DNA of 64,000 nucleotides, taken from the NCBI GenBank assembly GCA_026981975.1, contig JALSHV010000014.1, positions 1 through 64,000 on the forward strand, in the 5' to 3' direction. A program made the position numbers and the translations under genes. The number at the start of each line of letters is the position of its first letter. The stretch's first letter is position 1. The stretch comes from Aquificaceae bacterium. GTDB taxonomy: Bacteria > Aquificota > Aquificia > Aquificales > Aquificaceae. The notes under the pieces are model-generated. The model was not told the DNA's origin. It saw nothing but the letters and a program-made list of their open reading frames with translations, and did no database searches. Below, in pieces: positions 2,420-41,284 of this stretch.

Positions 2420-3631
2420 ATGGAGGGAGTAAGAATAAGAAATCTCCTTTCCTATTTGGAAAAAGTTGATAAATCACTTCTGATACTACTGTCAAATTTC
2501 CGCATAGAAGAAAGAGGAAAAACTATAAGACTTATAACGGAAGATCCGAATGCTGTAAACAAGATGAAAAAATTACTGACTTTAAAAACTGACAACTTAC
2601 CCGTTCCCGTTGAAATAGTTCTTGAAGCTGAAGAAGAAAGTCAACAATCAAAAGCCCGTGCAGAAGGACTATCACCAAAATACTCCTTCAATAACTTTGT
2701 AGTAGGTGAGGCTAACAAACTTGCTTATGAGGTATGTAAAGAGATAGCGGAAAACCCTGGGAATATATACAATCCGACATTTATATACGGTGATGTGGGA
2801 CTTGGAAAAACTCATCTACTTCAAGCGATCGGTAACCACTGTTTTCTAAAAGGTTATACCGTAGTTTATAAATCCGCTGTAGACTTCTCAGAGGAAATGG
2901 TAGAGAGTATTAAAAATGGTAAAATTCATGAATTCAGAAATCGCTATCGCAACATAGACGTATTACTCTTAGATGATATACAGCTATTGGCAGGAAAAAA
3001 CAGAACTCAAGAAGAGTTTTTTAACATTTTTAATTACCTTTATCTGAAAGAGAAACAAATAGTATTAGCTTCAGACAGAAGTCCGCGCCATTTGAAGGAT
3101 ATATCCGAAAGGCTTATAAGTAGATTTGAAGGTGGTGTAGTAGTGGAAATAGGGCTTGACGATCTTACAAAAATAGAGATTATAAAGAGAAAGTTGAAAG
3201 AGTTGAAAATAGATGTTCAAGTAAAGATAATAGAATTCTTAATGAAAAACACTTCTGCAAATGTAAGGGAAATAGAAGGAGCTGTAAAAAAGATAAAACT
3301 TGCAGGTGTGAAAGATTTAAAAAATATTGAAAGTAAAAGAGGGGATATAGCCATCATAATAAACCGTGTAGCTCTTTACTTCGGCTTAAAAGCTGAAGAT
3401 ATTACGGGAAACAAGAAATCAAAAAAGATAACCAGAGCAAGGCAAATAGCCATGTATCTTTGTAGAAAGTTAACTTACGCTTCCCTTATAGAAATCGCAC
3501 GTTCCTTTAACAGAAAGGATCATTCCACTGTTTTGCACGCTTTAAGAAAAGTAGAAGAAGAGAAAAAGGCGGATAGGAAACTCAATTACATAGTATCCTT
3601 TCTTGAAAGTCACCTTCGCGAAAAAGTTTAG
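2420..3631 (+). CDS. dnaA: Chromosomal replication initiator DnaA
   Basis: FIYGDVGLGKTHLLQAIGNH Walker A, LLLDDIQLLAGK, C-terminal RQIAMYLCRKLT...RKDHSTVLHA signature. Confidence 0.95.
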   Translation: MEGVRIRNLLSYLEKVDKSLLILLSNFRIEERGKTIRLITEDPNAVNKMKKLLTLKTDNLPVPVEIVLEAEEESQQSKARAEGLSPKYSFNNFVVGEANKLAYEVCKEIAENPGNIYNPTFIYGDVGLGKTHLLQAIGNHCFLKGYTVVYKSAVDFSEEMVESIKNGKIHEFRNRYRNIDVLLLDDIQLLAGKNRTQEEFFNIFNYLYLKEKQIVLASDRSPRHLKDISERLISRFEGGVVVEIGLDDLTKIEIIKRKLKELKIDVQVKIIEFLMKNTSANVREIEGAVKKIKLAGVKDLKNIESKRGDIAIIINRVALYFGLKAEDITGNKKSKKITRARQIAMYLCRKLTYASLIEIARSFNRKDHSTVLHALRKVEEEKKADRKLNYIVSFLESHLREKV

Positions 3632-4773
3632 TCCATGTCCTCTTTTTCTGTTATCTTATCCTTTTCAGGACGTTCCTCCTCTGTATCGTAGAATCTGTTT
3701 TCCAGTTTTTTAAGTATTTTAGGTAGTGATGTGTATTCCATTTCTTCAGTAGGTAATCTGTGAGGTTCAAATATGCCCTGTCTTCTCAACATATCAGCCA
3801 TTTCTTGAGCTACACTGCGCGCTTTATCAAAGGCAGGATCTTTAAAAAGATCAGAGGGTCCTATAAGTTTTCCTTCGGCTATTTGATAGCCGGCAGCTAT
3901 AACTCTTGGAGGTCCATCAAAACGAGAAGGTCTGGCATCTTCAAAGGAAACAGGCATAAGCGGTCCGTTATGAGATCCTCTCATCCACCCTTCCACAATC
4001 CAAGGTTTTGCAAAAGGCTCAAGAATTTCCCCTATTGCAGGAAATCCACTCTGTGATCTTACTATCATAACAGGATCGTCTTTTCCAACATACTGTCCAG
4101 CTATAAGGGAAAGCCTCTGAGTAGAGGCTGTAGCCGCTATTTCTCCGTCGTAATTACGGTAAACGTTTTTGACTACGTATTTACCCACAGATCCTATCAA
4201 TGCAAGTAAATCGTAAACTTCAGCAGGAGTGTTTATCTTAACCGCCTTTCCTGTGTATAGATCCAGAACCTCAAAGGTAAACCCGTCGTGCATTTTAGGA
4301 TCTATAACAAGTCCTGCTGTGCTCATCGGATCAGCAAACATTTCATAAAGAGGTAAGTTCCAAGCACTCGGAGATGTTTTGTCAGCGAAGAAAATAACAA
4401 CAGGTTCAGAGGGTCTTTCTTCAAATTCCATTTCCGCTACACCCGGTCCAAGTCCCTTTATATTCCCGCTGAAGGCATCTGTAAGCAAATCTTGCCCCGC
4501 ACCGTAGAGCTTAAGTTTCTTTGCTACCTGAGTTCCGCGTTCAAAAGCTTCCCAAGCTATACGATGCACTGTTTCATTATCAACACCGTGGGTATGGGTC
4601 ATGACTATTGCTATATCATCACCGCAGGTCAGAATATCCGAATAGATAAGATTTCCTTTTTCAACCTCCTTCCCCACAAAATCTTTGACTTCTTGAACAA
4701 CTTCGGGATGTGTGTCGGAATGTCCTACATAACCTCCTATATCCGCTTTTATAACGCTCAGGGTTAGCTTCAT
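3628..4773 (-). CDS. Fructose-1,6-bisphosphate aldolase/phosphatase (bifunctional)
   Basis: MKLTLSVIKADIGGYVGHSDTHPEV...HTHGVDNETVHRIAWEAF...FADKTSPSAWNLPLYEMFADPM. Confidence 0.93.
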   Translation of the reverse strand: MKLTLSVIKADIGGYVGHSDTHPEVVQEVKDFVGKEVEKGNLIYSDILTCGDDIAIVMTHTHGVDNETVHRIAWEAFERGTQVAKKLKLYGAGQDLLTDAFSGNIKGLGPGVAEMEFEERPSEPVVIFFADKTSPSAWNLPLYEMFADPMSTAGLVIDPKMHDGFTFEVLDLYTGKAVKINTPAEVYDLLALIGSVGKYVVKNVYRNYDGEIAATASTQRLSLIAGQYVGKDDPVMIVRSQSGFPAIGEILEPFAKPWIVEGWMRGSHNGPLMPVSFEDARPSRFDGPPRVIAAGYQIAEGKLIGPSDLFKDPAFDKARSVAQEMADMLRRQGIFEPHRLPTEEMEYTSLPKILKKLENRFYDTEEERPEKDKITEKEDMD

Positions 4774-25678: not shown

Positions 25679-26644
25679 GTGAAGTCCATACTATTTGTAT
25701 TTTTACTTACAGCTTCTCTTCTAAAGGCTGGAGAATTCTACGGAGAAACCCGTATTCTGTGGGGAATACCTGTAACTGTAACTTTTTACATAAAAAGAGA
25801 AAACTCTCCTGAGAAAATAGCCAATTTATGTTTTCTCAAACTCAAGGAAATTGGTTATAAGTTAAACTACTACGATCCCAATAGTGAAATTTCCGCTATT
25901 AATAAAAACAGTGGTAAGCGTGCTGTTAAGGTTTCAAAGGAAACCTATGAACTTATTAAGAAAGCTCTTGCGGTTTCAAAAATGACAAAGGGTGCTTTTG
26001 ATATTACTGTAAGACCGCTTTTCAATCTGTGGGATTTTAAAAAAAAGAAAATCCCTTCCACTCAAGAACTTATCAAGGCGAAGGAAAAGGTAAGTTACCG
26101 AAGTATTGTTCTTGATCAGATAACAAAAAGTGTATTCCTTACCAAAGAAGGCATGGAAATAGATGTAGGTGGAATAGTAAAAGGATTTATGGCAGATATC
26201 TGTGTAGATATCCTTAAAAACAGTGGAGCCTACGCAGGTATGGTTGCTGTAGGAGGGGATATAAAGGTTTTCGGAAAGAAAAAAGGTAACAGACTTTGGA
26301 AAATCGGTATAAGAAAGCCTCGCGGGAATGGTATTGTGGCATTTTTAGAAATCACCGACGTTGCCATATCAACCTCCGGAGATTACGAAAGATTCTTTGT
26401 AAAGGAAGGAAAACGCTATCACCATATAATAGATCCGCATACAGGCTTTCCCGCAAAAGGGATAAGGAGTGTAACAGTTATAGCAAAAGAAGGAGCTTTA
26501 GCGGACGCTTTGGCTACTGCTTTATTTGTTTTAGGACTCAAAAAGGCAAAATCATTGCCTGTTGAATTCGTTATTGTAGACTCCTCTGGCAAAGTTCACA
26601 TAAGTGCAGGATTAAGGAATAAAGTCTTTATAACTGCTCCCTAA
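25679..26644 (+). CDS. FAD:protein FMN transferase (ApbE/NosX family)
   Basis: YDPNSEISAINKNSG...DVGGIVKGFMAD...GGDIKVFGKK...HHIIDPHTGFPAKG. Confidence 0.9.
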   Translation: MKSILFVFLLTASLLKAGEFYGETRILWGIPVTVTFYIKRENSPEKIANLCFLKLKEIGYKLNYYDPNSEISAINKNSGKRAVKVSKETYELIKKALAVSKMTKGAFDITVRPLFNLWDFKKKKIPSTQELIKAKEKVSYRSIVLDQITKSVFLTKEGMEIDVGGIVKGFMADICVDILKNSGAYAGMVAVGGDIKVFGKKKGNRLWKIGIRKPRGNGIVAFLEITDVAISTSGDYERFFVKEGKRYHHIIDPHTGFPAKGIRSVTVIAKEGALADALATALFVLGLKKAKSLPVEFVIVDSSGKVHISAGLRNKVFITAP

Positions 26645-28073
26645 GCTTTCTGTGAAGGAAAATACCTATTCCCAAGGATACTAAGAAAACGGCGGGTGGA
26701 AGAACATAAACCTTGAGAGGTGTTGGGGGTTCAAGAATAAAGTAATACCAAGCAGATACAGCTCCCGTTACCGGTTCCGTTTCTCCTTCCTGACCGTCAA
26801 ACACTGAAACCGAAAAGGGAATGAATTTACCTACTGTGAATTCAGGATCTTCTTTATCTCCTGTTGAAAGCTTCCTGATAAACATTACTCTGTAAAGACC
26901 ATCTTTGTAATGGTAAAAGACTTCTACATCACTCTTTTCCTGCTCTTTTATTCTGTCAGGACCTTTTGCTATCAGTTCTTTTGCTCCTTCTTCAGCTACA
27001 CTCCACCTCCATAGATACATAGCTCTTTTCCTGTCTCCTATGATAAAGTGAGGTTTTTCAGGTCCATCTACCAATTTTTGAGGAAATTTTAAGTAAAGAA
27101 CATCTGGCGGGAGTCCATCGTCTCCTTTGTTTAATTTCCTATCGGACCACTCCAAAAGAAAAGCCACTTTATCCTGTGTATAAACACCCCTTATCCTGAC
27201 ATTTGTCAGAACAGGAGTGAACTGTCTTTTCTCAAGAGTAACTTGTCCTCCCATGGGAAGATCTAAATAATCCACCGTATCCCAAAACGGATCATTGGGA
27301 TCTTCAGGCAGAGCGTCCACTTTAACAAAGCGTATTGAAGGACCCGTTTTTCTCTTTAAAAACAAGGTTTGAACGTAACAGGCAATAGCCCATCTCTGTT
27401 CATCAGACAAAGAGTCTATATAGGAAGTCATTGGAGTTCCGTCTATACCTCCGGTGATTACGGTGTATATATCTTTCAGATCTGTTCCCCTTCTGAATTC
27501 CCAAGGATGAGTATGGTTAGCAGGATAAATTTTATTACCCCAGTCATCTTTAAACTTAGGTTCCCATATCTTCTCCCCGTCTCCTCTACCTGCATGTCCG
27601 TGACAGTCTATACACTTCGCTTCTCCGTGGTAGAGATCTTTACCCAACTTTACTTTTCCTTCATCACATTTGGGAACTGTGGTTATTTCTACTTTTTCAA
27701 TATCTTCCATATCTTCAAACACATCTTCGGAAAAGGTTTTTAGATAAGCTATCAGATCTTCTACTTCTTTATCGCTGAATCTCTTCCAGCCCGGCATTGT
27801 AGTCCAGTGCATACCTTCCCTTATACTTCTTATAAGATCCTCGTCTAAAGGAGGCATACCAGAAACTGTTGATTTGAATTTATAAACTCCTACAGTAAAA
27901 TCTCTGGGTTTAGGAAAGGAAAAATCCGCAGCATAGCCGTTTCCTTCTCCTTCGTAGCCGTGACACTGGGCACACCACTGATCGTATATTTTTTTACCGT
28001 TTTCCGCGTTTCCCGCAAAGACGGTGCTCAGTATCAGCAAAAGGAATAATCCTATGTATTTCATTCCCGCCAC
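26628..28073 (-). CDS. Diheme cytochrome c with ethylbenzene-dehydrogenase-like domain and C-terminal TM anchor
   Basis: Two CxxCH (CAQCH, CIDCH); DPNDPFWDTVDYLDLPMGGQVTL...VAFLLEWSDRKLN; C-terminal hydrophobic segment. Confidence 0.82.
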   Translation of the reverse strand: MAGMKYIGLFLLLILSTVFAGNAENGKKIYDQWCAQCHGYEGEGNGYAADFSFPKPRDFTVGVYKFKSTVSGMPPLDEDLIRSIREGMHWTTMPGWKRFSDKEVEDLIAYLKTFSEDVFEDMEDIEKVEITTVPKCDEGKVKLGKDLYHGEAKCIDCHGHAGRGDGEKIWEPKFKDDWGNKIYPANHTHPWEFRRGTDLKDIYTVITGGIDGTPMTSYIDSLSDEQRWAIACYVQTLFLKRKTGPSIRFVKVDALPEDPNDPFWDTVDYLDLPMGGQVTLEKRQFTPVLTNVRIRGVYTQDKVAFLLEWSDRKLNKGDDGLPPDVLYLKFPQKLVDGPEKPHFIIGDRKRAMYLWRWSVAEEGAKELIAKGPDRIKEQEKSDVEVFYHYKDGLYRVMFIRKLSTGDKEDPEFTVGKFIPFSVSVFDGQEGETEPVTGAVSAWYYFILEPPTPLKVYVLPPAVFLVSLGIGIFLHRKLREQL

Positions 28074-28077
28074 CTCC

Positions 28078-28887
28078 TCACCATGTCCTCGGTTTATTAC
28101 CCGAAGCTTCGTATATGAAGAGAATTACCTTCCATATATCTTCTTCTGAAAGTCCCAGATCCTCAAAGGCGGGCATTGCCGAATCCCAAGGTGTAGATCC
28201 GTCAGGTAGTTCCTTCCAACCTTTTGCTATTCTCCAAAAGACAAAGGACTCCGGAAGTTGAGCTATTGTATCTGTCCCTCTGAAGGGAAGGGGTCTGGGA
28301 TTGAATGCGTCAGCAAAGATGCCGTGTCCTGCAAGATCGTCTCCGTGGCAGAAAAAGCAGTTCTGATAGTAGATCTTCTTGCCTTCCTCAAGGTATTCTT
28401 GAAGTTTATCCGTTTCCTTACGCAGAGGATTTTCAAGTCCCAAGATTTTTATAGTTTTCCCCTTAAAGTTTATTTCCATAGGAGGTTCGGGGTGAATTAT
28501 TCTTGGAGTAACAGGAGGCACGTATTTAGGTTTAACCCAGCTGTAAGTGAGATAAGCCAGTAAAAGGGGAATTCCTAAGTAAACAATTACAAAGCGTTGT
28601 ATTTTAAGATCCTCCCTTCCCAGTATTGCTTTAACAGGAGCTAAGAATCTTTGAAAGGTTTCTTCTTGAATTGAATAGTAAATTATAAGTCCTATTACTG
28701 ACAGAACCATATACATGAGGATTACCTGAGAGGGAAGAGGAGGCATAAAAAGTCCGGCACTTTTAAGAGCGCCGTATATAGCTATAATGAGACCGAAAAA
28801 TTGAAAAAGAGGGGATCTTTTCAAAAGCGCTCCAAGAAACAAAAGAAGACCTATCCCCAGAATAGCAGGATACAGGTAACCCTCCAT
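28078..28887 (-). CDS. Multi-TM protein with C-terminal cytochrome c domain
   Basis: N-terminal TM helices; NCFFCHGDDLAGHG heme-binding motif. Confidence 0.8.
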   Translation of the reverse strand: MEGYLYPAILGIGLLLFLGALLKRSPLFQFFGLIIAIYGALKSAGLFMPPLPSQVILMYMVLSVIGLIIYYSIQEETFQRFLAPVKAILGREDLKIQRFVIVYLGIPLLLAYLTYSWVKPKYVPPVTPRIIHPEPPMEINFKGKTIKILGLENPLRKETDKLQEYLEEGKKIYYQNCFFCHGDDLAGHGIFADAFNPRPLPFRGTDTIAQLPESFVFWRIAKGWKELPDGSTPWDSAMPAFEDLGLSEEDIWKVILFIYEASGNKPRTW

Positions 28888-28890
28888 TTT

Positions 28891-29400
28891 TTATCCTCCC
28901 GTTTTTTTGAGAACCTCTTTGAGTATCTTTAAAGATTCGGGAAATGAAATAGTAACCCTACTTCCTTGGCTTTGCAGATACGCTGCCACCGCTATGAGTT
29001 CTTCTTCAGTAAGACCTATAGGCGGTTTATGCACAGGAGGCATCATGTTTTCAAAACCTTCAGCAACATAGGCTCCGGGTGCTACAAGTGCTTCAAAAAC
29101 GTGAAACTCTGGAGATATTCCCCTTTCCTTTGCTTCTTTTTCCATAAGAGCTCCTATGCTGGATATAGCTGGTGCTCTCATTCCCGTCTCCGTTTTCATA
29201 GGGTGGCAAACCATGCACTGCCCTTTACCGAATACTATTTCTTTTCCTATATCTACGAGTTCTTCTACAGTAATCCCTTCCTCTATTTTTATCTCCTTAG
29301 GAGGGTGGGACTCCGCTTGTGGAAGTAAGTAAAGACCTATATAAGTGAAAAAAGCGTTTATAAGAAAGACAACAATTATAAGCTTGAGAACACCACTCAT
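28891..29400 (-). CDS. Membrane-anchored monoheme cytochrome c
   Basis: N-terminal TM; GQCMVCHPMKTE. Confidence 0.8.
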   Translation of the reverse strand: MSGVLKLIIVVFLINAFFTYIGLYLLPQAESHPPKEIKIEEGITVEELVDIGKEIVFGKGQCMVCHPMKTETGMRAPAISSIGALMEKEAKERGISPEFHVFEALVAPGAYVAEGFENMMPPVHKPPIGLTEEELIAVAAYLQSQGSRVTISFPESLKILKEVLKKTGG

Positions 29401-31133
29401 GCTTTTTCTCCTCCGAGCTTTTCGTATTTCATGATGCTCCAGAAAAGAGAGGCTACCAGAGCGAAGAATATAAGTGTTACAGCAGAAACCACTAAGGAGG
29501 CAAATCCGTGTGTTGGCAGATAGGCTTCAGGGCTTGTATCTTTCATTATTCCGTAAATATGCCAATGCTGTCTTCCGCCTGATCTTATATAACCCATAAG
29601 CCCCATAAGCCATGTGAAAGTTACCATCATAGCTATAAGAGCATATTGAGATCTTTCCGGCATTTGTCCCCATCTGGGTTCACCAAGAGTTCTTGCGTTT
29701 TTATACATCAAGGAATCAAGAACGTAAATTGCTATGATAGCTAAGAAGAAAATACCGAACTGTATGGGAGAGATGATTTTGACTCTTACCACCGCTGGAA
29801 CCATATAACTGTATACACCTAATCCTATAAGAACCGCTGAAGATCCGAACATAAGTAAAACTCTGAGAAACTTACCAAATCCCGCCCAGGAAACGGTGGG
29901 TTCTTTGTTACTTAGTCTGAAAATCTCATAACTTAAAAACGTAGCTAAGAAGGAAATAGTAACAGCGGTATTCTTAGCTGCCATGACACCGAGCTTTCCT
30001 AAGATAGGGTGGTAAGCTCCTATTCTTCTTGCCTCTTCCAAACTCAAAGCTACACTATGGGGAGTGAGCCACACTGCGTATCCGAGCATAACCACTATAA
30101 AGAGAAACTTTACGTATCTGAAATATCTTTCTCCACCGGGCATTTTGTTAAGAGAAACCCAGAGGTAGTAGTTAACAAATAAAAGAATAGCTCCAATGAG
30201 TATAGCCTGCATAACCCACAGCCACGCGTAAAAACCTCCCATAAGCTGAATTCCCATTTGTTCGTTGAAAGCGTAAATTTCTACTCCCAAAAGGTAACCT
30301 ATGGGAGGTAAGATAACCAAGAACCCTATGGCTATCATAGAAGAGATATAACCCATCCAATCGTAATAGGCTTTCTCTTCTTGGGTTTTTGCTGTTATAA
30401 ATCTGTAAGCTGCGTAAGCTGCTCCAAGTCCTGCTCCGAAAACAACGTTTGCTACAAGCCTATGCAGGGTAAGAGGTATCCACATATAGGTGTTTATCGC
30501 ACCCCACCTGCTTACAAGTTCTCCTGTTTCTGTCACACCTCCGGGTGTTGTCATAAAACCTATCCATGCATTGGGAACTAACAGGAGAAGGGTTCCCAGA
30601 ACGTTGAGCATAACACCCATAAGAATATGCAATCCTTTTCTATCCTGCATTTTGTGCCAGGAGTAGAAGTAAAGGTAACAGAAGAAAACTTCTCCATACA
30701 TAAAGGCTATGTAAACCCACCACGTGGGACCGAGTATCTTTATCATGTAATCCACGAACTTAGGGTAAAGAATCGGTAAACTTACCATAAGCACTGTTCC
30801 CAGAATAGCCGTTATGGTGTAAGCAAGGGTAAAGAGTTTTGCAAAGTCATAGGCTATTCTGTCAAGTCTTTCATCTTTCCTTCTCCAACCGAGAAATTCC
30901 ATTGCAACGGCGAATATGGGAACTCCTAAGACAAAGGCAGCAAAGTTAAGATGCAACTGGGCTACTATCCAAACCCAAACCCTGCTACCTAAGAGAGGGA
31001 ATTGCCGATAACCGTCCTCCGCTGGGGGAAGGATTCCCTTTAACAGATATATGCCTATGAATCCTATAATTAAGAAAATAGTTATTTTTACAATACCCTT
31101 TATTATTCCCTGAGCGACCTTCCCCTCACCCAT
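29397..31133 (-). CDS. Cytochrome bd-like subunit I (CydA superfamily), divergent
   Basis: AQLHLNFAAFVLGVPIFAVAMEFLGW, MYGEVFFCYLYFYSWHKMQ, IPLTLHRLVANVVFGAG, SGGRQHWHIYGIM; no CydB in window. Confidence 0.8.
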   Translation of the reverse strand: MGEGKVAQGIIKGIVKITIFLIIGFIGIYLLKGILPPAEDGYRQFPLLGSRVWVWIVAQLHLNFAAFVLGVPIFAVAMEFLGWRRKDERLDRIAYDFAKLFTLAYTITAILGTVLMVSLPILYPKFVDYMIKILGPTWWVYIAFMYGEVFFCYLYFYSWHKMQDRKGLHILMGVMLNVLGTLLLLVPNAWIGFMTTPGGVTETGELVSRWGAINTYMWIPLTLHRLVANVVFGAGLGAAYAAYRFITAKTQEEKAYYDWMGYISSMIAIGFLVILPPIGYLLGVEIYAFNEQMGIQLMGGFYAWLWVMQAILIGAILLFVNYYLWVSLNKMPGGERYFRYVKFLFIVVMLGYAVWLTPHSVALSLEEARRIGAYHPILGKLGVMAAKNTAVTISFLATFLSYEIFRLSNKEPTVSWAGFGKFLRVLLMFGSSAVLIGLGVYSYMVPAVVRVKIISPIQFGIFFLAIIAIYVLDSLMYKNARTLGEPRWGQMPERSQYALIAMMVTFTWLMGLMGYIRSGGRQHWHIYGIMKDTSPEAYLPTHGFASLVVSAVTLIFFALVASLFWSIMKYEKLGGEKA

Positions 31134-31145
31134 GGTTTATACCTC

Positions 31146-31883
31146 TCACTTTTTCTCTTTCTTTTTCAGTGTTACATTAACGGTTGTAGTTTTACCCGCT
31201 TTCACTTCAACCTCTTTGACTACTTCCTTCATGCCGGGATGCCATATCCAGAGCTTGTATTTACCGGGAGGAATATCTTTAATTACAAATTCACCCTTTG
31301 AATTAGTAACAGTAGCGTAAGGGTGCTTGGAGATATAGACGTATCCCCACATCCAAGCGTGAGCGTCACACTTTACTTTGTGAAGCCCAGAAGTCCTTAT
31401 TGGCTTTCTTATTACCTGTCCTTTCTTAGGAAGTGCAAGGTTGTAAGCGGTTCTTTCTTTACCCTTTTTGAGAATCTTGTTTATATGAGTATTGTGTAAG
31501 AAAGGATCACTGTTAGTAAATACAAACTTGTTACCCTTTTTCTTAAAACATACCTGAACCAATGGTTCAAAGTAACAGTCTTTATTGTCTATTACACAAT
31601 CCTGCTTAGGAATGGGTTTGCCCTTTTTAATTTTCTTAATAGCTACAATGGCATTCTTTAAACCCAGATCAGGTGCTATTTCGTAAAGTCTGGCTGGCTT
31701 ACTTGTTCCGCAAAAATCTGTATTCTTAGTTATTGTAAGAACGGGATCCTTATACTTTTTTGCTGCTTTGATCTTTCCTTTAATCACACCTCCGTTTTTT
31801 ACCTCAATCTCCTTGTAAGGAAAGGCTGCTCCACTTAGGAACAAAACAGCTACCCCTAAGAGTCTGATACCAAGTTTTGTCAT
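31146..31883 (-). CDS. Cupredoxin-like periplasmic protein with carboxypeptidase-regulatory-like C-terminal domain
   Basis: Signal peptide; HNTHI...KVKCDAHAWMWGYVYISKHPYATVTNSKGEFVIKDIPPGKYKLWIWHPG. Confidence 0.75.
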   Translation of the reverse strand: MTKLGIRLLGVAVLFLSGAAFPYKEIEVKNGGVIKGKIKAAKKYKDPVLTITKNTDFCGTSKPARLYEIAPDLGLKNAIVAIKKIKKGKPIPKQDCVIDNKDCYFEPLVQVCFKKKGNKFVFTNSDPFLHNTHINKILKKGKERTAYNLALPKKGQVIRKPIRTSGLHKVKCDAHAWMWGYVYISKHPYATVTNSKGEFVIKDIPPGKYKLWIWHPGMKEVVKEVEVKAGKTTTVNVTLKKKEKK

Positions 31884-31932: not shown

Positions 31933-32409
31933 TCATTTTCTCTCCATGATTAGTTTAACACTTTTCTCCAATTCTTCTTCAAGAATATAGTGTTCTACCA
32001 CTTGACGAACTATTCCTTCCTTATCTATAAAAACTATAACAGGCACAAAGTTTATACCGTATGCCCTTATGAGCTTCTGATCGTTGCCCGCAAACATGGG
32101 AAAGGGAAGATCAAAGGCTCTTTTATAAGCTTTTATAAGTCTGCTGTCTCTTGCCATGACATTTATAGTCAAAATTCTTACCTTATCCCCGTATTTTTTA
32201 TGAACTCTTTTAAGAAAAGCTATTATTTGAGTGCAATAATGACACGCGTTATGGGTAAAGTAAATAATAGTAGGCCTGTCTATGAACTTACCAAAATCAA
32301 CCCGCTTATCCTTTTCATCAAGAAGTTCAAAAGTAGGTGCTTTTTCCCCAATTTTAACTGAAGAGAATACAAAAGCTGTTACTGCCAAGAGTCCTAATAA
32401 AAGCTTCAC
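31933..32409 (-). CDS. Periplasmic thioredoxin-fold protein (TlpA/ResA type, CHYC)
   Basis: Signal peptide; IIYFTHNACHYCTQIIAFLKRV...INFVPVIVFIDKEG. Confidence 0.85.
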   Translation of the reverse strand: MKLLLGLLAVTAFVFSSVKIGEKAPTFELLDEKDKRVDFGKFIDRPTIIYFTHNACHYCTQIIAFLKRVHKKYGDKVRILTINVMARDSRLIKAYKRAFDLPFPMFAGNDQKLIRAYGINFVPVIVFIDKEGIVRQVVEHYILEEELEKSVKLIMERK

Positions 32410-33407
32410 TTCTCCACCTCCATATCTAAAAGTTTGTAGGAAAGAACATTTCTGTAATGATGTCCGTATATTGCGGGAATTCCATCTTCTTCTTCTATAT
32501 GGGTATAGGCAAAAAGACTTAGGGGTTCAACCTGCGGAGGTTCCAGCTTGAATCCTCTACCTCTGGACAGTCTTATTCTGTTAGGTGGTATTGCTCCGAA
32601 ATAGAACTCCGCAAGTTCTGGCCTTTTTTTAGCCTCCGCAAGATCCGCGGGTATCCATTTCTTACCGTCATAAAAACGAACCCAACTTATTGTTTTTAGA
32701 CAATCTGCTTCATAGCTGTCTTGATCTTTAAGTTCCGAAGGATAGGGAAGTATAAGTCCTTCTTCCCAAGATACTGGAATTTTTTTATACATGAGCATAC
32801 TTCTAAAAAGTGCATGAAACTCATCACATCTGCCTATCTTCTGCTCAAAGGTTAAAATACTTACCCCTCTTCCGCACACACCTTCTATATGCTTTGTTCT
32901 TCTGATTATAGCTTTATAGATTTTTTTTGCTATCTTTACAGGATCTTTCTCTCCCGCTGTGACTTTATCTGTAAAATTTTCTATTTCTTTGTTCCAAACT
33001 TCCCATTCTGAAGGTTGAAGACAAAGCTCCACTTTCAGAGAGGGATCTTTCACTGCTTTTTCCCTTTTTCTTGTAATTCTAAATTTAATAACTATTTCCG
33101 ACTCTCCTATTTTATCCCTTTCTATAAAAAGGGATCTGTTTCCCCACACTTTTTCTTCCGTTATTCTGTAAGGATAAGGAGATATAACTTTAAAATTACT
33201 TACTTCCTGAGCGTGATCCGTAGGAGGAATCGGAATCCACATCTTGACCTTTTTGAGAGGTTTCAGAATTTTAGTATAGTGAGTTATATCAAGAGTTACG
33301 GACTTTACCTTGCTGTCTTCTAAACGACGTGATAGAACACCAGTCGTTGGAGTCAAGCTTGCTATAAGTAAGAGCGTAAGGACTTCTCTTCTGTTCAGTT
33401 CTCTCAC
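32406..33407 (-). CDS. Transglutaminase-like domain protein, exported
   Basis: Signal-like N-terminus; GRCDEFHALFRSML catalytic-Cys motif; GTG start overlapping upstream stop (GTGA). Confidence 0.75.
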   Translation of the reverse strand: MRELNRREVLTLLLIASLTPTTGVLSRRLEDSKVKSVTLDITHYTKILKPLKKVKMWIPIPPTDHAQEVSNFKVISPYPYRITEEKVWGNRSLFIERDKIGESEIVIKFRITRKREKAVKDPSLKVELCLQPSEWEVWNKEIENFTDKVTAGEKDPVKIAKKIYKAIIRRTKHIEGVCGRGVSILTFEQKIGRCDEFHALFRSMLMYKKIPVSWEEGLILPYPSELKDQDSYEADCLKTISWVRFYDGKKWIPADLAEAKKRPELAEFYFGAIPPNRIRLSRGRGFKLEPPQVEPLSLFAYTHIEEEDGIPAIYGHHYRNVLSYKLLDMEVEK

Positions 33408-33799
33408 CTGACTACCTCCCCACTTATACCGAGAATGACTATTCTTTTGTTTGGATCGTTGGTTCTTACTTCCACTGTTTTAAACATTCTCCCTATACCC
33501 ACTACTTCTACTCCTGTATCTATAATCACTTCAATGCTACCTTCCTCACCCGGTTTAATCTCCGCCAAACTGGCGGAGGCTTTTGTGCAAATACTTCAGG
33601 CAGGAGTGAGACTTATTATTCTTAAAATACTGTTACCCTCGTTTCTGAATTTAAACTCAGCTTTTACCTTTTCTCCTTTTTTAACTTTACCAACTTCTAC
33701 AATTGTTTTCTCAAAAACAATTTTTGGCACGTCAGCAGAAAACAAAGGGAGAACTAAAGTGCTAATCACCAAGAGAAATAGTAAGTTTAACTTCCTCAT
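33404..33799 (-). CDS. DUF1573-like exported protein, candidate selenoprotein with in-frame UGA (33598-33596); translation MRKLNLLFLLVISTLVLPLFSADVPKIVFEKTIVEVGKVKKGEKVKAEFKFRNEGNSILRIISLTPA-U-SICTKASASLAEIKPGEEGSIEVIIDTGVEVVGIGRMFKTVEVRTNDPNKRIVILGISGEVVR
   Basis: ATG 33799 with GGAGG; same frame continues 63 codons past the UGA to TGA 33406-33404, which overlaps the next gene's GTG. DUF1573-like pattern on both sides of the UGA. Confidence 0.8.
33560..33578 (-). promoter_or_regulatory. Candidate bacterial SECIS hairpin CUCCGCCA-GUU-UGGCGGAG
   Basis: Perfect 8-bp stem, 3-nt loop beginning GU; 25 nt between the UGA and the loop. Confidence 0.75.
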
Positions 33800-34484
33800 C
33801 TTTTTTTACCTCCACCTCAAACTCTTTGATACCGAAGGCTTCCTGCCAGACTTTGAGTTTATATCTACCCTCGGGTATATTTTTTATCTCAAAAGTTCCT
33901 GCGGAATCGGTAATGTCCGCATAAGGGTGGTCAAAAACAAAAATGTAGCCTCTTATCCAAGGGTGAGCGTTGGATCTTACGTATATAAAACCTGTTTTTT
34001 CCTGATATCTGTGGAATTTCTTAATAGGTCTTTTAAGGATCATTCCCTTCTGAGGAAGCGCAAGGTTGTAAATGGTAGCACCTGTTTCAAGAGGACGGGT
34101 TTTCCTTTTCTTTTTGTAAGCGAGTTCTATTTTAAGCTGGACGGTGTGGAGAATAGGATCTTCGTTTTTTATTATGTAATTCCCTCCTACAAAACCTATA
34201 CTGACAAGAGGAATTACCTTGCAGTCTTTTACAGTTATTCTCACATCTCTGTTTGAAGGAAGTTTACCTTTCGCCCCTTCTACCCACACAACAGCGTTTT
34301 TAACCCCTCCATCTGCACTTCGCTCCAGTTTATTTATCTTTACTTTTTCCCCGCATATAAGAGCGTCGGTTTTAACTTCCACGATTTCTACCGGTGGAGG
34401 CTTCCCTTTGTAAACTACTTTTCCCTTAATTACCCCCGCGAATAGAGTTCCACTTAGGATAATTAACGCAAACAACGCTCTCAT
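33762..34484 (-). CDS. Cupredoxin-like periplasmic protein, paralogue with degenerate copper site
   Basis: Same architecture as 31146..31883, but RSNAHPWIRGYIFV replaces KCDAHAWMWGYVYI. Confidence 0.7.
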   Translation of the reverse strand: MRALFALIILSGTLFAGVIKGKVVYKGKPPPVEIVEVKTDALICGEKVKINKLERSADGGVKNAVVWVEGAKGKLPSNRDVRITVKDCKVIPLVSIGFVGGNYIIKNEDPILHTVQLKIELAYKKKRKTRPLETGATIYNLALPQKGMILKRPIKKFHRYQEKTGFIYVRSNAHPWIRGYIFVFDHPYADITDSAGTFEIKNIPEGRYKLKVWQEAFGIKEFEVEVKKDEEVKLTISLGD

Positions 34485-35308
34485 CTCTCAAACCTCCTTT
34501 TGAACAATCCGTATCCTACGTAAAGCGGAACCAGGATCCATAAGAACAGCATAGCCCATAAAAAAGAAGGCTTTACATAAGAAGGTAGTTCTACAGTAAT
34601 AAAGCCGAGCATGGCTTTAAGTTCACCTACGGAAAGTAGATTTATAATTCTAAACACATCTGTGGGATTTAAAAGTAGTAAGACGGTAAACAGTGTTTCC
34701 GAAAACATTCCCTTAGTGAGAACGAGAATTCCCAAAAGAAACAGATCGTAGAGAATTACAAGCATTAACCACAAAAATACAGCGGAGATAACTATTTTTG
34801 TTTTTTCCAACAGGAGTGTTGAAAGCAGGAAGGACAGAGAAAGTAAAGAAAATCCTAAAAGTAATGAAGATAGAAACAGAATCAGTAATGAAGGAACAAC
34901 TTCCATTCCAAAGCGAAGAAACAGAAGAACAGAAGTGGGAGCAAATCCGAAGGCTACAGTAAAGGTAAGGATAAGACTTTGACCTAAGAATTTACCAATC
35001 CACATATCCCATGGTGAGATCACGGAAGCCATTATTATTTCAAAGGTTCCCTTTTCCTTTTCCTCTGCAATTGCGCTTGTTCCCAGCAAGAGGGATAAAA
35101 GGGGAATAAAGTAAGTTATAAGACTTATAAGACTAACAGTTATAGCTTCAAATTTTCTAAATCCCACTATACCCGCGGGAGATCCCCCGAAATACGCTAT
35201 ACTCAGGGTAAAAAGTGCCAAAGCTACTGAGGCTATTTGAATCCAGCGATTTCTGTATTTGTCAAGTCTCTCCTTCCATACAACCGCCTTTACAGCTTCA
35301 CTTAGCAC
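34481..35308 (-). CDS. nosY: NosY-like ABC permease
   Basis: TSAIAEEKEKGTFEIIMASVISPWDMWIGKFLGQ; adjacent to NosF and NosD. Confidence 0.85.
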   Translation of the reverse strand: MLSEAVKAVVWKERLDKYRNRWIQIASVALALFTLSIAYFGGSPAGIVGFRKFEAITVSLISLITYFIPLLSLLLGTSAIAEEKEKGTFEIIMASVISPWDMWIGKFLGQSLILTFTVAFGFAPTSVLLFLRFGMEVVPSLLILFLSSLLLGFSLLSLSFLLSTLLLEKTKIVISAVFLWLMLVILYDLFLLGILVLTKGMFSETLFTVLLLLNPTDVFRIINLLSVGELKAMLGFITVELPSYVKPSFLWAMLFLWILVPLYVGYGLFKRRFER

Positions 35309-36197
35309 TGAAGAACACCTCCTCTAAGGACGGTTCTCTGACCCTTATATCGTATATGTTTTCTTCCAGTTCACCCAGTTTCATTAAAAACTCCACTTTT
35401 CTATCAACTGGAACTTCAGCGGTTACAAGATCTCCTTTTACCTTAACTTCCTCAGCTCCTATTTTTTTCAAGTGCAAACTTATTTCCTCCGCTTTACCTT
35501 TGATTTTAAGTAAAAACAGTATAGGAAGGTTAAGACTCATATAAAGTTCTTCAAGAGAACCCACAGCTTTGAGTCTGCCTTCTTTTAAGATAACAACTTT
35601 ATCAACTCTATTTTCTATCTCCGCAAGTATATGAGTGGATATTATTACAGTAGCACCGTGATTCTTCCTGAGGGTTTCAATAATACTGTAAAAACTTCTT
35701 ACACCTTCAGGATCCAAGCCTGACGTAGGTTCGTCCAGTATCAGCATCTTAGGTTCTCCTAAGAGAGCTTGCATTAAGTTTATACGCTGTTTCATTCCCT
35801 TTGAATACTCACCCACTCTTCTGTTTAAAGTTTCTTCGGAAAGCAGATTAAGAGATATGACTTTGCGGATCTCTTTTTCACCGTATCCTTTGATGCGAGC
35901 GAAAAATTTCAAAGTTTCCATACCTGTGAGATTATCGTAAAAAGAAACCCTTTCAGGCATGTAACCTGTTTTCCTGCGAAAAGATATCCATTCTTCTGTT
36001 GAAGGTTCCCGGGAGTTTATCAGAATTCTACCCGATGTCGGCTTTTCCAATCCCAGCAGTATTCTCATAAGAGTTGTCTTACCAGCTCCGTTGGGACCCA
36101 CAAGTCCTAAGAATTCTCCTTCTCTTATCTGTAATGAAATACCCTTTAGAGCCCTTACAGAGCCGTAAGCCTTTTCTACCTCAGCGAGTTCTATCAT
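35298..36197 (-). CDS. nosF: NosF-like ABC ATPase
   Basis: GLVGPNGAGKTTLMRILLGLEKPTSGRI...YSKGMKQRINLMQALLGEPKMLILDEPTSGLDPEG. Confidence 0.9.
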   Translation of the reverse strand: MIELAEVEKAYGSVRALKGISLQIREGEFLGLVGPNGAGKTTLMRILLGLEKPTSGRILINSREPSTEEWISFRRKTGYMPERVSFYDNLTGMETLKFFARIKGYGEKEIRKVISLNLLSEETLNRRVGEYSKGMKQRINLMQALLGEPKMLILDEPTSGLDPEGVRSFYSIIETLRKNHGATVIISTHILAEIENRVDKVVILKEGRLKAVGSLEELYMSLNLPILFLLKIKGKAEEISLHLKKIGAEEVKVKGDLVTAEVPVDRKVEFLMKLGELEENIYDIRVREPSLEEVFFSAK

Positions 36198-38428
36198 CAG
36201 TGAATGACCTGAAATTTTTCCAAATCAGAGTAATACAGAGAAGGTTCTACCTTGTATTTTCTCGCGAGCTCTTTCCAATTTGAGTGTATAGGTTTCATAA
36301 GCGGTTTTGGATCCACAATCTTGGAAGCTTCAAAAACGGGAAATTGTTTTTCAAGAAAAGTTATTGTCTGTAGAGCCGGACTTGTAAAGAGAAACTTGGA
36401 GAGAGGATATCTCCACAGAATATAATCCACATAAGAACCGGATTCATAAGGAACGTCTCCTACACCGTCTCCGTTCATATCCCAACCTAAATAATCACTC
36501 CAGAAATTTCCCTTCCACTCTTCCTTTTTCTTAGTTGATATGAACCTCACTTGAACTCCGTTATTTATAAAAGAGTTTCCTTCAATAACGTTAGCTTCAG
36601 AAGCAGCAAGACTCCATATACCTATAAGGTGGTTCATTATAAGATTTCCTTTAAGTTCGTTTTTATAAGCTCCAAAGAAGTAAATACCACAGCTGTTTCC
36701 TATCACCGTATTGTTTTTTATAATACTGCGTTCCGCTTGAATAAGCAGTATGCCATGGGTAGTATTACCCACAGCGAGATTGTTTTCTATAACAGCTCTT
36801 TTTGTATACATTATCGCCATACCCAACAGATTTCCCTTAGTGACGTTATTTCTCCATATACCTTTATCCACCCACATCGTGTGTATGCTGTAACGAGAGT
36901 TCTCTATAAAGTTGTTTTCTACTCTTCCTTCATGAGACACTTCCATATAAATACCGTCTTTACAGAATCTCAGTTTATTGTTTAAAATAACAGCCTTGTT
37001 AGAACCTGTTAGATCTATACAGTTTCCCCTTTGATTGACGTCTAAATCTTTTTCACCTTCTATAAGGTTATTTTCAATGACTACTCCTTCGCTGTTTATT
37101 ACTCTTACACCAATAGAGGTATCTAAAATACTGTTTTCTCTTATTACCACTTTCTCCGCATTTTCCACAATTATCCCTATAGCTCTTTTTCTACCGGCTT
37201 TTTTATGCTTTATAGTAAAACCCTCAACGATAACACCACTTGCTTTTATCCCTATAAGAAAATTTCTCTCGGAAGGCATGAAAGGATTATCCGAACCCTC
37301 CCATTCAATAACAGGTTTACCTATTCCCTTAAGATGAACTCTCTTGTCTAATAGTAAACTCTCCTCATACACACCCTTATACACAACTATTACATCTCCA
37401 TCTCTTGCCTGTGCAAGAGCTTCACCTATACTTTTGAACTGTTTTTCCTCACCCACGTGCAGAGTTTTTCCAAAAACGCTACCTGATAAAATCAGCAACA
37501 ATAAACCCACAAGTATTATTCCAGATCCCTTTGTCTGTCCTCTTTTCTTTCTCAACAGAACAGGACACAGATCTTCGTCCCAGAAGTTTTCATGACATTC
37601 AAGACAGAGAAGACATTCTCTTCTGTCTATCATTCCATTTCTCTTTATAGCCTGAGGATTACAGGAAGCTGCACATATAACGCACTTTCTACAAAGCTCG
37701 TATCGGGGTATTTTCCTTAAAGGAATCCAGCGAGAAAACAAAAGCGAAGGCAATGCTATAGCACCGCCTAAGGGACAGAGATATCTACAAAAAGCTCTGT
37801 AAATAAGGATTGAAACTCCAGTAAGCAAAATGAAGTAAGCTACGAAAAACCAATCTCTTTTTAGCTTAAGTATAAAGGTTTTAAAAGGTTCTACTTCGCT
37901 CATATATTCCGCAAGAGCAAAGCTTAAAAAAGAAACACCTAAGATGACAAAAAAAATCACGTATTTAAGGTAAACCAACTTCCAGTGAAGAGAATAAGAA
38001 AGGTTAAAAGTTTTATGAAATGGTAACTTGCGATAGCCCTTGTTAAAAAGCTCCAACATTGCCCCGTAAGGACAGAGCCAACCACAAAAAGCTCCTCTGC
38101 CCCAGAGTATCATTGTTATGGCTATAAAGATAAAGCTCAAAAAGATGAAGGGATCCAGCATGTAAAGAGTAAAAAGAGGAAAACTTCCTTCCTTAAGGTT
38201 GTTGAAAAATATAACTACATTCATAACCGTTGGCTGGGACTTAAGATAGAGTCCTACGTATAGAAAAGAAACAATCAAAACCGGATATCTGATGAAATCC
38301 GTTAGTTTTCTCTTGTGAGCTATTTTGTCTTTGAATAAAAGCACAAAAAACAAAAAAATTAAAAAAGACGAGTAAACTGCAATATGAGGTGCTTTCATCG
38401 CCCATATTTGTTTCCAGAGGTCCGTCAT
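36197..38428 (-). CDS. Fusion protein: NosR C-terminal/NosH-like polyferredoxin membrane domain + NosD copper-site maturation domain
   Basis: N-terminal half GRGAFCGWLCPYGAMLE, YRAFCRYLCPLGGAIALP, CRKCVICAASCNPQAI, CLLCLECHENFWDEDLCPVLL; C-terminal half NosD beta-helix (HLKGIGKPVIEWEG...NFWSDYLGWDMNGDGVGDVPYE) in one uninterrupted 743-aa ORF. Confidence 0.9.
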   Translation of the reverse strand: MTDLWKQIWAMKAPHIAVYSSFLIFLFFVLLFKDKIAHKRKLTDFIRYPVLIVSFLYVGLYLKSQPTVMNVVIFFNNLKEGSFPLFTLYMLDPFIFLSFIFIAITMILWGRGAFCGWLCPYGAMLELFNKGYRKLPFHKTFNLSYSLHWKLVYLKYVIFFVILGVSFLSFALAEYMSEVEPFKTFILKLKRDWFFVAYFILLTGVSILIYRAFCRYLCPLGGAIALPSLLFSRWIPLRKIPRYELCRKCVICAASCNPQAIKRNGMIDRRECLLCLECHENFWDEDLCPVLLRKKRGQTKGSGIILVGLLLLILSGSVFGKTLHVGEEKQFKSIGEALAQARDGDVIVVYKGVYEESLLLDKRVHLKGIGKPVIEWEGSDNPFMPSERNFLIGIKASGVIVEGFTIKHKKAGRKRAIGIIVENAEKVVIRENSILDTSIGVRVINSEGVVIENNLIEGEKDLDVNQRGNCIDLTGSNKAVILNNKLRFCKDGIYMEVSHEGRVENNFIENSRYSIHTMWVDKGIWRNNVTKGNLLGMAIMYTKRAVIENNLAVGNTTHGILLIQAERSIIKNNTVIGNSCGIYFFGAYKNELKGNLIMNHLIGIWSLAASEANVIEGNSFINNGVQVRFISTKKKEEWKGNFWSDYLGWDMNGDGVGDVPYESGSYVDYILWRYPLSKFLFTSPALQTITFLEKQFPVFEASKIVDPKPLMKPIHSNWKELARKYKVEPSLYYSDLEKFQVIH

Positions 38429-39501
38429 TCAAGGAACCTCCGGGGAATCTGATAAGGAACAGAAAAGGTTTTTAACTTTTTCTCTCCTCCTATACGGTAT
38501 GGAACTATAAGATTAAATATAAACTTTTTTGTTGGATCTATATCCGCGGTAGTTACAAAGAAAAGACCCCCTTCTTTGAAGGGGGTTATATTTACCTTAA
38601 GATCTTTACGGCTAACTATCTTATAATCTGTTTCCCTGAAAATATAGGTTAATCCTCCCTGTTCTATGTTAAATCCTTCAAATAGTCCACCGCGAGCAAA
38701 TCCTTTTCCTTTAAAGGAAACTCTGCCTCTGGTGGAAAATATGAGTAAAACAAACCTTGCTTTTCGTTTCATCGCGTAGCTGTAAAAACTATCTTTTAAA
38801 AGATTTCTACCTACGGAAGGAGGATCAATTACCGCAAAGTAGAGATCAAGGTATATACCTTTTTCTTTAAGTCCCAAATCTTCAGCAGTTATCTTTACTC
38901 TTTTAACAGCTCCGCTCTTTAAAAGCTCCTTCCAGCTAAGTTTTTCGTATTTTTTCTTTATCCTCCTGCCTTTTGTAACCTCTACTTTAAATATACCCAG
39001 CTGTTCTGCAAGTAATCTTGCACTGTTCACTATTATGGAATTTTGAACAACTGCAGTTACAGTAGCACCTGTAATAGCGTCCATAGAAATTTCTTTCCCT
39101 ACTTTCAGTTCTTTCTTTATGTTTTTCCCCTTGTATTGTTTCAAAAATTCATGATACTGTTTTTCACTAAGTCCTATCATGACTATGGGTTCTGAGTGAT
39201 ATATAAGCTTAACTCCTGTTATATTACCTTTTGTGTCCATTCCTATAAGCGTTTCCATATGTTTTCCAGAATATCCCACCAGTTTTGGAGTCCAGTTTTT
39301 TGAAATAAGAACATAACCCACCAGTCTATTTCCTGAATACGCTTCCCAGTATCCTTTCTTTTTAACAAATCTATCCGCTTCTATAACATCGCTGAGTTTA
39401 TACTCGTATCTGTGTTCAAAGAAACTCCATTGAGCCAAAAGAGGGGCAGAATAAAGCCATAAAAAAAATAAAAGGATAAAAGGGGAAAGGGAGAGAGGCA
39501 T
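38425..39501 (-). CDS. NosR N-terminal, FMN-binding domain protein
   Basis: Signal peptide; ISMDAITGATVTAVVQNSI flavinylation-type motif; 4-bp overlap with downstream fusion gene. Confidence 0.85.
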   Translation of the reverse strand: MPLSLSPFILLFFLWLYSAPLLAQWSFFEHRYEYKLSDVIEADRFVKKKGYWEAYSGNRLVGYVLISKNWTPKLVGYSGKHMETLIGMDTKGNITGVKLIYHSEPIVMIGLSEKQYHEFLKQYKGKNIKKELKVGKEISMDAITGATVTAVVQNSIIVNSARLLAEQLGIFKVEVTKGRRIKKKYEKLSWKELLKSGAVKRVKITAEDLGLKEKGIYLDLYFAVIDPPSVGRNLLKDSFYSYAMKRKARFVLLIFSTRGRVSFKGKGFARGGLFEGFNIEQGGLTYIFRETDYKIVSRKDLKVNITPFKEGGLFFVTTADIDPTKKFIFNLIVPYRIGGEKKLKTFSVPYQIPRRFLE

Positions 39502-39505
39502 TCGG

Positions 39506-41284
39506 TTATGCCTCCACGATAAAGCGTGATCTCATCTCTAAGTGTAGTGCGTGACAGAAGTTTGTGCAGTATATCCAGAATACTCCCGGTTTATCCGCTG
39601 TAAATGTTACAGACTTTGTTTGGAAAGGAGCTACAACAAAGTTTATGTTGTAGTTAGATATACAAAATCCATGAGCAAGATCTTGAATCTCGTCGTTATT
39701 GGTAACTATAAAGGTAACTTTATCTCCCCTTTTAACTCTTATCTCCTGTAAACCGTAAACAGGAGCGTTGGCAGTCATTTTTACTATTACGTGTCTGCCC
39801 TTTCTTATTATCTCGCTTTTGGTAACCGCTTGTGGGTGTTCAAACATATGGTGACGATCTTTTACATTCTTCTCAACTATATCTCTCCTTACTATGATAC
39901 AGTCGTGAGGTTCAAGATAAGCAGGTTCGTCCTTTACAAGCTTCATCTTTTTCTTGCTTATATCTATAAGCTGATCGTTCTCAACCTTCAAAGGACCACA
40001 GTTTAAGAATCTGTCCTTAGAAACTTTGTTCAAAGCTACGAGCCATTTTCCATCAGCTTCTTTGGTTTCAGCCATGGAAGCCATAATGTGACCTATTTGA
40101 TAGTGAATGTCTATGATGTCAACAATAGCATCTTTGGAACGCTTCGGAGAGTTTATAGCTTTTTGAACATTCCACTTAACTACTGTGCTGTCTATGAAGC
40201 AGGAAGTATAAGCATTTCCTCTATCGTCAAAGGTGGTATGGAGTGGACCCAATCCAACGTAAGGCTGAGCGACTATGCAGTCTTCGGGTTTTATTTTTCC
40301 TTCAAAGGCTTTATCCACAAGCTCCAAATCAACCACTGTGCAGGTGGGATCTACCTTTCCAGAGCTTATGGCATACCTTCCGTCAGGAGAAACATTAACA
40401 CCGTGAGGATTCTTGGGAACAGGTATTCTCAAAACTAAGCCCGGGTAGCCACTTTTTCTTGTTCCGTCTATTACCTTAACACCGTTCACCATAGTGTAAG
40501 CACCTTTGCGTAGAGCTTCTCTGACCTTTTCCCAGTTGAAGATTATCAGATAGTCGTGATCCCATGCGAGCATTTCGGATATGGTAAATCCTTGTTCTGG
40601 GTTATAAGAGTTTGCCATAGAATACTTTCCTTTGTAATCGGTAGCTGCAAGATCAAGGTTTTCTTCAAGAACTATTTGACACACTATTTCCATTCTTTCA
40701 GCGTCTATTATGGTATGAACTCCGTAATACTTCTCCTTAGGTTTTTTGGGATCGTTAGGCACAGGAACTTGGAATTCGGCGTTTAACACAAGCCATTCCG
40801 TTTTAGGATATCTCTGCGGGAAAAGCCCGTGAGCGCCTTGTATGTTCGGGACATCTAAAATGGCATCTGTTTCCATGTAGTCTAGTCTTATACGAGCTAC
40901 CCTGTTGTTGGCTTTATCGTTTACAAATATATACTTTCCATCGTATGTTCCGTCTTTATAAGAACCGTGAACGTGGTGAGTATCTCCTACGTATCTACCC
41001 CTTAGGAGTTTCTTGCTTTCGTTGGTTATTCCCCAACCTGTTGCAACGTCCATATTGAAAACGGGAATTCTCTTTAAACATCTCATAGAGGGAACACCCA
41101 GAACCCTTACCTCTCCAGAATGCCCCCCTGACCAGAAACCGTAATAGTCGTCAAGCTCACCGGGTTTTACTTCATACCTTTGATCACCTTTCCTTCCCGC
41201 TACTGTTTGGGAAGGCAAAAGCGCCCCTACACCCGCAATGGCGCCTCCGATACCTACAAATTTGAAAAAGTCTCTTCTATTCAT
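39506..41284 (-). CDS. nosZ: Nitrous-oxide reductase NosZ
   Basis: MNRRDFFKFVGIGGA Tat-like signal; GDTHHVHGSYKDGTYDGKYIFVNDKANNRVARI; CuA motif GVFWIYCTNFCHALHLEM. Confidence 0.97.
   Translation of the reverse strand: MNRRDFFKFVGIGGAIAGVGALLPSQTVAGRKGDQRYEVKPGELDDYYGFWSGGHSGEVRVLGVPSMRCLKRIPVFNMDVATGWGITNESKKLLRGRYVGDTHHVHGSYKDGTYDGKYIFVNDKANNRVARIRLDYMETDAILDVPNIQGAHGLFPQRYPKTEWLVLNAEFQVPVPNDPKKPKEKYYGVHTIIDAERMEIVCQIVLEENLDLAATDYKGKYSMANSYNPEQGFTISEMLAWDHDYLIIFNWEKVREALRKGAYTMVNGVKVIDGTRKSGYPGLVLRIPVPKNPHGVNVSPDGRYAISSGKVDPTCTVVDLELVDKAFEGKIKPEDCIVAQPYVGLGPLHTTFDDRGNAYTSCFIDSTVVKWNVQKAINSPKRSKDAIVDIIDIHYQIGHIMASMAETKEADGKWLVALNKVSKDRFLNCGPLKVENDQLIDISKKKMKLVKDEPAYLEPHDCIIVRRDIVEKNVKDRHHMFEHPQAVTKSEIIRKGRHVIVKMTANAPVYGLQEIRVKRGDKVTFIVTNNDEIQDLAHGFCISNYNINFVVAPFQTKSVTFTADKPGVFWIYCTNFCHALHLEMRSRFIVEA

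Follow-up and report, generated by a model that had tools for sequence, protein, structure and literature searches.

An in-frame UGA in a DUF1573 gene of an Aquificaceae hot-vent bacterium is very probably read as selenocysteine (Sec) by SelB-dependent insertion, with a probability that we put at about 95% from comparison of sequences. The gene lies in a nos operon on the minus strand of the window, by which is meant the whole 64,000-nucleotide stretch of DNA analysed; the features discussed are collected in Table 1. The division of its reading frame by a UGA is not a matter of chance: the Pfam match is full length, the UGA and the hairpin behind it are conserved, and the changes between species are structured by codon. 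The initial annotation had called the gene a candidate selenoprotein, a call that is strongly supported by the Sec machinery of the genome, the conserved UGA, the SECIS-like hairpin and the coding constraint downstream of the UGA.

Translation starts from an ATG at 33799, and residues 1–21 form a putative signal peptide. Under the standard code the product has 67 residues and ends at the UGA, beyond which the frame continues through 63 sense codons to a terminal TGA (33406–33404). This TGA overlaps the GTG start (33407) of a transglutaminase-like gene, just upstream of which is the sequence GGGGAGG. U68 is found in the context P-A-U-S-I-C-T, and Cys71 aligns with the second of the two Cys in the CGC motif of the DUF1573 family. 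The truncated frame, the U-S-I-C motif and the arrangement from the UGA to the GTG start had all been described in the initial annotation, and are borne out by the sequence; its coordinates for the gene are also correct, to which the minus strand, omitted there, has to be added. When read on the plus strand, the same interval contains several stops besides TGA.

Table 1. Features of the DUF1573 selenoprotein candidate and the surrounding nos operon (positions in the window)
Feature	Position	Strand	Basis or remark
Sec-DUF1573 gene	33404..33799	minus	131 residues including U68, then terminal TGA; translated with TGA as U
Proposed Sec codon U68, in-frame UGA	33598-33596	minus	TGA at one column in three species
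Cys71 (TGC), second member of the U-[S/T]-I-C pair	33587..33589	minus	invariant in 3 orthologues
SECIS-like hairpin CUCCGCCA-GUU-UGGCGGAG	33560..33578	minus	fold; loop begins 25 nt past the UGA, with G
GGGGAGG, RBS-like site of transglutaminase-like gene, within 3' end of Sec gene	33415..33421	minus	sequence
NosZ, TAT-dependent type	39506..41284	minus	TIGR04244, 813 bits (cut-off 625)
FMN-binding protein, NosR N-terminal-like	38425..39501	minus	PF04205, 27.4 bits
Fusion of NosR C-terminal/NapH-like ferredoxin part with NosD	36197..38428	minus	TIGR04247, 354 bits, over cut-off; Fer4_5
NosF-like ATPase	35298-36197	minus	ABC_tran
NosY-like permease	34481-35308	minus	ABC2_membrane_2
Exported CarboxypepD_reg-type protein	33762..34484	minus	Pfam PF13715; in both other loci
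Transglutaminase-like exported protein	32406..33407	minus	Pfam Transglut_core, 31.3 bits
ResA/TlpA-like thioredoxin-fold protein, C-H-Y-C	31933..32409	minus	AhpC-TSA, 64.6 bits
Second exported CarboxypepD_reg-type protein	31146..31883	minus	Pfam PF13620; present in L037
Cytochrome bd subunit I-like membrane protein	29397..31133	minus	PF01654
c-type cytochromes, after bd-like gene	26628-29400	minus	Cytochrom_C

The read-through protein matches Pfam DUF1573 (PF07610) with 63.4 bits against a cut-off of 26.1 (E = 2e-17), residues 27–129 covering positions 1–98 of the 98 in the profile. The part after the UGA thus completes the domain, as the initial annotation had supposed, and since the match runs across the UGA over its whole length, the UGA lies inside one single domain. 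The AlphaFold2 model based on three sequences (pLDDT 80.6) is a complete β-sandwich of eight strands, four of which (71–76, 86–94, 103–113 and 120–130) come after U68; on this model, the 67-residue product would equal half a domain. A Foldseek search with the predicted fold returned PapD/ASH-like domains, with E values of 2e-7 to 5e-7.

Orthologues were sought in 100 relatives and the genome itself, and with a profile in 136 Aquificota genomes. The former search gave two close orthologues from the same Aquificaceae genus: G006 (DRNB01000244.1, a MAG that bears the label Aquifex aeolicus HyVt-501) and G003 (WFYM01000212.1, Aquificaceae S141_94), which are 76% and 62% identical to the protein described here. 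A scan of contigs using the single protein as query gave no match, while a profile scan recovered both. No further close orthologue appeared in the profile search of the 136 genomes, and tblastn of the protein against plasmids gave no match; the comparisons are therefore of three sequences, all of one genus. Each of the two orthologues has one internal stop, a TGA, and the UGA column is identical in all three sequences. Among the approximately 130 DUF1573 matches listed from the 136 genomes, these three are the only ones that contain a stop. Downstream of the UGA, 36 of the 48 changes between our gene and that of G006 fall at third codon positions, with a dN of 0.13 and a dS of 2.6.

A SECIS-like hairpin just after the UGA, where the initial annotation had proposed a SECIS, is supported both by folding and by its conservation in the three species. 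The stem has 8 bp and the loop is GUU; all 19 bases are the same in G006, and in G003 a single base differs, so that the closing pair is open and the stem is shortened to 7 bp. The limits used by bSECISearch for the distance from UGA to loop are 16–37 nt, and the hairpin has the attributes expected of a bacterial SECIS, namely a location just after the UGA, a small apical loop starting with G, and a suitable distance. Codons +1 to +13 have undergone fewer synonymous changes (3/9, 3/9 and 0/9.5 sites in the three pairs of species) than the remainder (29/35, 29/35 and 23.5/37), giving Fisher p values of 0.007, 0.007 and 0.0003, the pairs being non-independent. In 2000 synonymous recodings, the stability of the hairpin was never reached. 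An 8-bp stem was present in 7.7% of recodings under permissive rules, and such a stem follows 64 of the 1912 TGA triplets in the window; stem length alone is thus only moderately unusual, and conservation of the hairpin is the stronger argument. An Rfam scan over the region matched no SECIS family and gave no other real match.

Under the standard code the UGA is a stop, and the gene might accordingly be truncated or decaying, producing 67 residues or nothing at all, with the rest a remnant. This is very improbable in view of an identical UGA that three diverged species share, the strong purifying selection downstream of it, a hairpin that is kept at synonymous sites, and a fold that is complete only with read-through. 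The assembly to which the window belongs is a draft in 29 contigs, which raises the question of a one-base error in sequencing or assembly; as the DRNB01000244.1 and WFYM01000212.1 assemblies carry the same codon and hairpin, such an error is less credible still.

The genes that the initial annotation had proposed to look for, selA, selB, selC (tRNA-Sec) and selD, are all present in the genome, tRNA-Sec scoring 68.9 bits (cut-off 47) and the other three each lying above their cut-offs. It could be argued that an ordinary amino acid (Trp, or another through near-cognate suppression) is inserted at the UGA instead of Sec, given that a comparison at the protein level would look alike under any read-through. 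However, of the 54 ORFs in the window that reach 150 aa, 20 end in TGA, and so there is no general recoding of UGA; the conserved SECIS-like hairpin and the full Sec machinery also speak against ordinary decoding, which we regard as highly improbable.

Some further observations concern the same machinery. The selD gene of this genome (G000:C4:77259-78158, L038) carries an in-frame TGA, followed by a 7-bp hairpin with a 3-nt loop (GGC) resembling the one in the Sec-DUF1573 gene, and selD is therefore very probably itself a selenoprotein. In a scan with TIGR01591, none of the listed matches contained a stop and none was above the cut-off, and hence no selenium-dependent formate dehydrogenase was recognised. 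On contig C33 of G003, tRNA-Sec (2955–3049) adjoins a paralogue of the transglutaminase-like gene (3194–4093), and a similar pair, approximately 1.2 kb apart, is found in genome G031.

In order of transcription, the operon encodes a cytochrome c, NosZ, the FMN-binding protein, the NosR-C/NosD fusion, NosF, NosY, a CarboxypepD_reg protein, the Sec-DUF1573 protein, the transglutaminase-like protein, the ResA/TlpA-like CHYC protein, a second CarboxypepD_reg protein, the bd-like protein and cytochromes c. Another species (locus L037) has its genes in the same order as far as it is covered. The first CarboxypepD_reg gene runs 38 nt into the start of the Sec gene. The orthologues of the CHYC protein are 86% and 83% identical, with the CHYC motif invariant; the ResA model scores 67 bits on it, which is under its cut-off. 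The transglutaminase-like protein has orthologues only in G006 and G003 (73% and 64% identical). It has T-I-S-W at what we take to be the position of the catalytic His of the family, and may be non-catalytic. In the flanks fetched for its distant relatives from other Aquificota, there is no neighbour of the DUF1573, ResA-like or CarboxypepD_reg type. Among the cluster proteins scanned, neither a CydB-type partner for the bd-like protein nor a NosL domain was recognised.

In the genomes, the Sec gene does go together with one particular operon of the TAT-type NosZ. Only three of the 136 Aquificota genomes, namely our own, G006 and G003, have a NosZ that passes the TIGR04244 cut-off, and orthologues of the Sec and transglutaminase-like genes are confined to these three. 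A further 31 Aquificota have a NosZ scoring 298–383 bits, and lack both genes. The rarity of the TAT-type NosZ and the far lower scores of the others suggest that this is a separate, possibly transferred, nos operon. NosZ is on the same contig as the Sec gene in G003, and on another contig in G006. An internal TGA seen in the NosZ of G023 (L111) proved to be just a stop that precedes the start codon, and the ORF itself is intact.

From its sequence and surroundings, the protein is probably an exported selenoprotein that handles redox equivalents or metal and is tied to the respiratory operon, a grading that applies to this general role and leaves the specific substrate aside. We hypothesise that SelB, which would bind the hairpin just past the UGA, would bring Sec-tRNA-Sec, so that translation proceeds and the whole domain is made. 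The product would be an exported DUF1573 selenoprotein with a PapD/ASH-like β-sandwich, in which Sec68 and Cys71 would form a pair in a turn linking two strands, in or beside the position that C-G-C occupies in ordinary DUF1573 proteins. Both the chemistry of U-x-x-C motifs and the presence of the CHYC protein nearby suggest that this pair may be a redox or metal-binding site. The ResA/TlpA-like CHYC protein, as presumed partner, would keep the pair reduced in the periplasm, and the pair would in turn uphold the maturation or redox state of the N2O-respiration chain, the likeliest substrate being copper, or the copper-ligand cysteines, of the TAT-type NosZ of the operon.

A role in the copper or redox maturation of NosZ, together with the CHYC protein, is suggested by the operon and by co-occurrence, and is proposed here tentatively. 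The chances are only a little below even that the selenoprotein acts instead on maturation of c-type cytochromes, on the bd-like protein, in detoxification of peroxide or NO, or in a general periplasmic disulfide pathway, and not on the copper sites of NosZ. The cluster also has several c-type cytochromes, the bd-like subunit, and the ResA/TlpA-like and transglutaminase-like proteins, and relatives of ResA/TlpA function in the maturation of cytochrome c and CuA. Against this, the Sec gene is found in Aquificota only alongside the TAT-type NosZ, an association in three genomes that cannot separate one operon member from another. The NosZ role could be taken further, with selenium supply gating N2O respiration and the Sec protein representing a new type of NosZ copper or redox factor; we think this unlikely. 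The overlap between the Sec stop and the transglutaminase-like start is kept in all three genomes. Because this start lies on the Sec stop, and its RBS inside the end of the Sec gene, downstream expression may be coupled to Sec insertion: if insertion failed, ribosomes would halt approximately 190 nt short, and translation of the downstream maturation genes would be uncoupled.

No publication about a selenoprotein encoded in a nos operon came up in a literature search, and to our knowledge periplasmic bacterial selenoproteins tied to denitrification are little documented. If confirmed, the present gene would tie N2O reduction by hot-vent bacteria to selenium, and would provide DUF1573, a domain of unknown function, with a testable hypothesis of redox or metal binding. 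It would also mean that standard annotation splits the protein in two.

It is worth adding that DUF1573 as such is not a new selenoprotein family, contrary to a hint in the initial annotation. It is listed among selenoprotein families with the motif UGC (PMC9312934, PMC13188914), and according to the accounts in these two reviews the first DUF1573 selenoprotein was that of an Olavius algarvensis symbiont (Zhang and Gladyshev, 2007). It is also modelled by NCBIfam as NF041425, the 'OS_HP2 family (seleno)protein', on which the three orthologues score 57.0 (our protein, E = 1.9e-15), 60.2 and 59.8 bits, all under the curated cut-off of 100. The proteins described here share with OS_HP2 a DUF1573 domain with Sec in the region of the Cys motif, but differ in their sub-cut-off scores, in belonging to Aquificota, in being encoded in a nos operon, and in having U-[S/T]-I-C in place of UGC, which is absent from all three. 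Since the family was already known, the differences, namely a U-[S/T]-I-C motif, an Aquificota lineage and a nos operon setting, appear to be what is new.

Cys-type DUF1573 proteins of Bacteroidota (PF07610; SCGCT) have the same domain in an exported, short, single-domain form, but their C-G-C-T becomes U-[S/T]-I-C-T in the Sec protein, which is one residue longer there. In a MAFFT alignment with five of them, U falls on the first Cys of SCGCT and is followed by one extra residue, whereas with U masked, a profile of the same five sets it immediately ahead of the first Cys of CGC, one residue earlier; homology of U68 with that Cys is thus in doubt by one residue. The 136 Aquificota genomes yielded no orthologue having a Cys in exact U-x-x-C register, and at the place of U68 a Cys motif is absent from the other DUF1573 domains of Aquificota that were examined.

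The predicted fold is like those of 2qsv (Porphyromonas gingivalis), HYDIN (2e6j) and the ASH domain of OCRL (3qbt), at sequence identities of 17–24%, which are low and make these structural matches only; the PDB sequence matches besides 2qsv resemble repeat-protein noise. The Sec protein differs from ResA/TlpA periplasmic thioredoxins and from the copper chaperone NosL in having neither a thioredoxin fold nor detected similarity to NosL. The ResA/TlpA proteins may nonetheless be its functional company, the CHYC protein being encoded two genes downstream.
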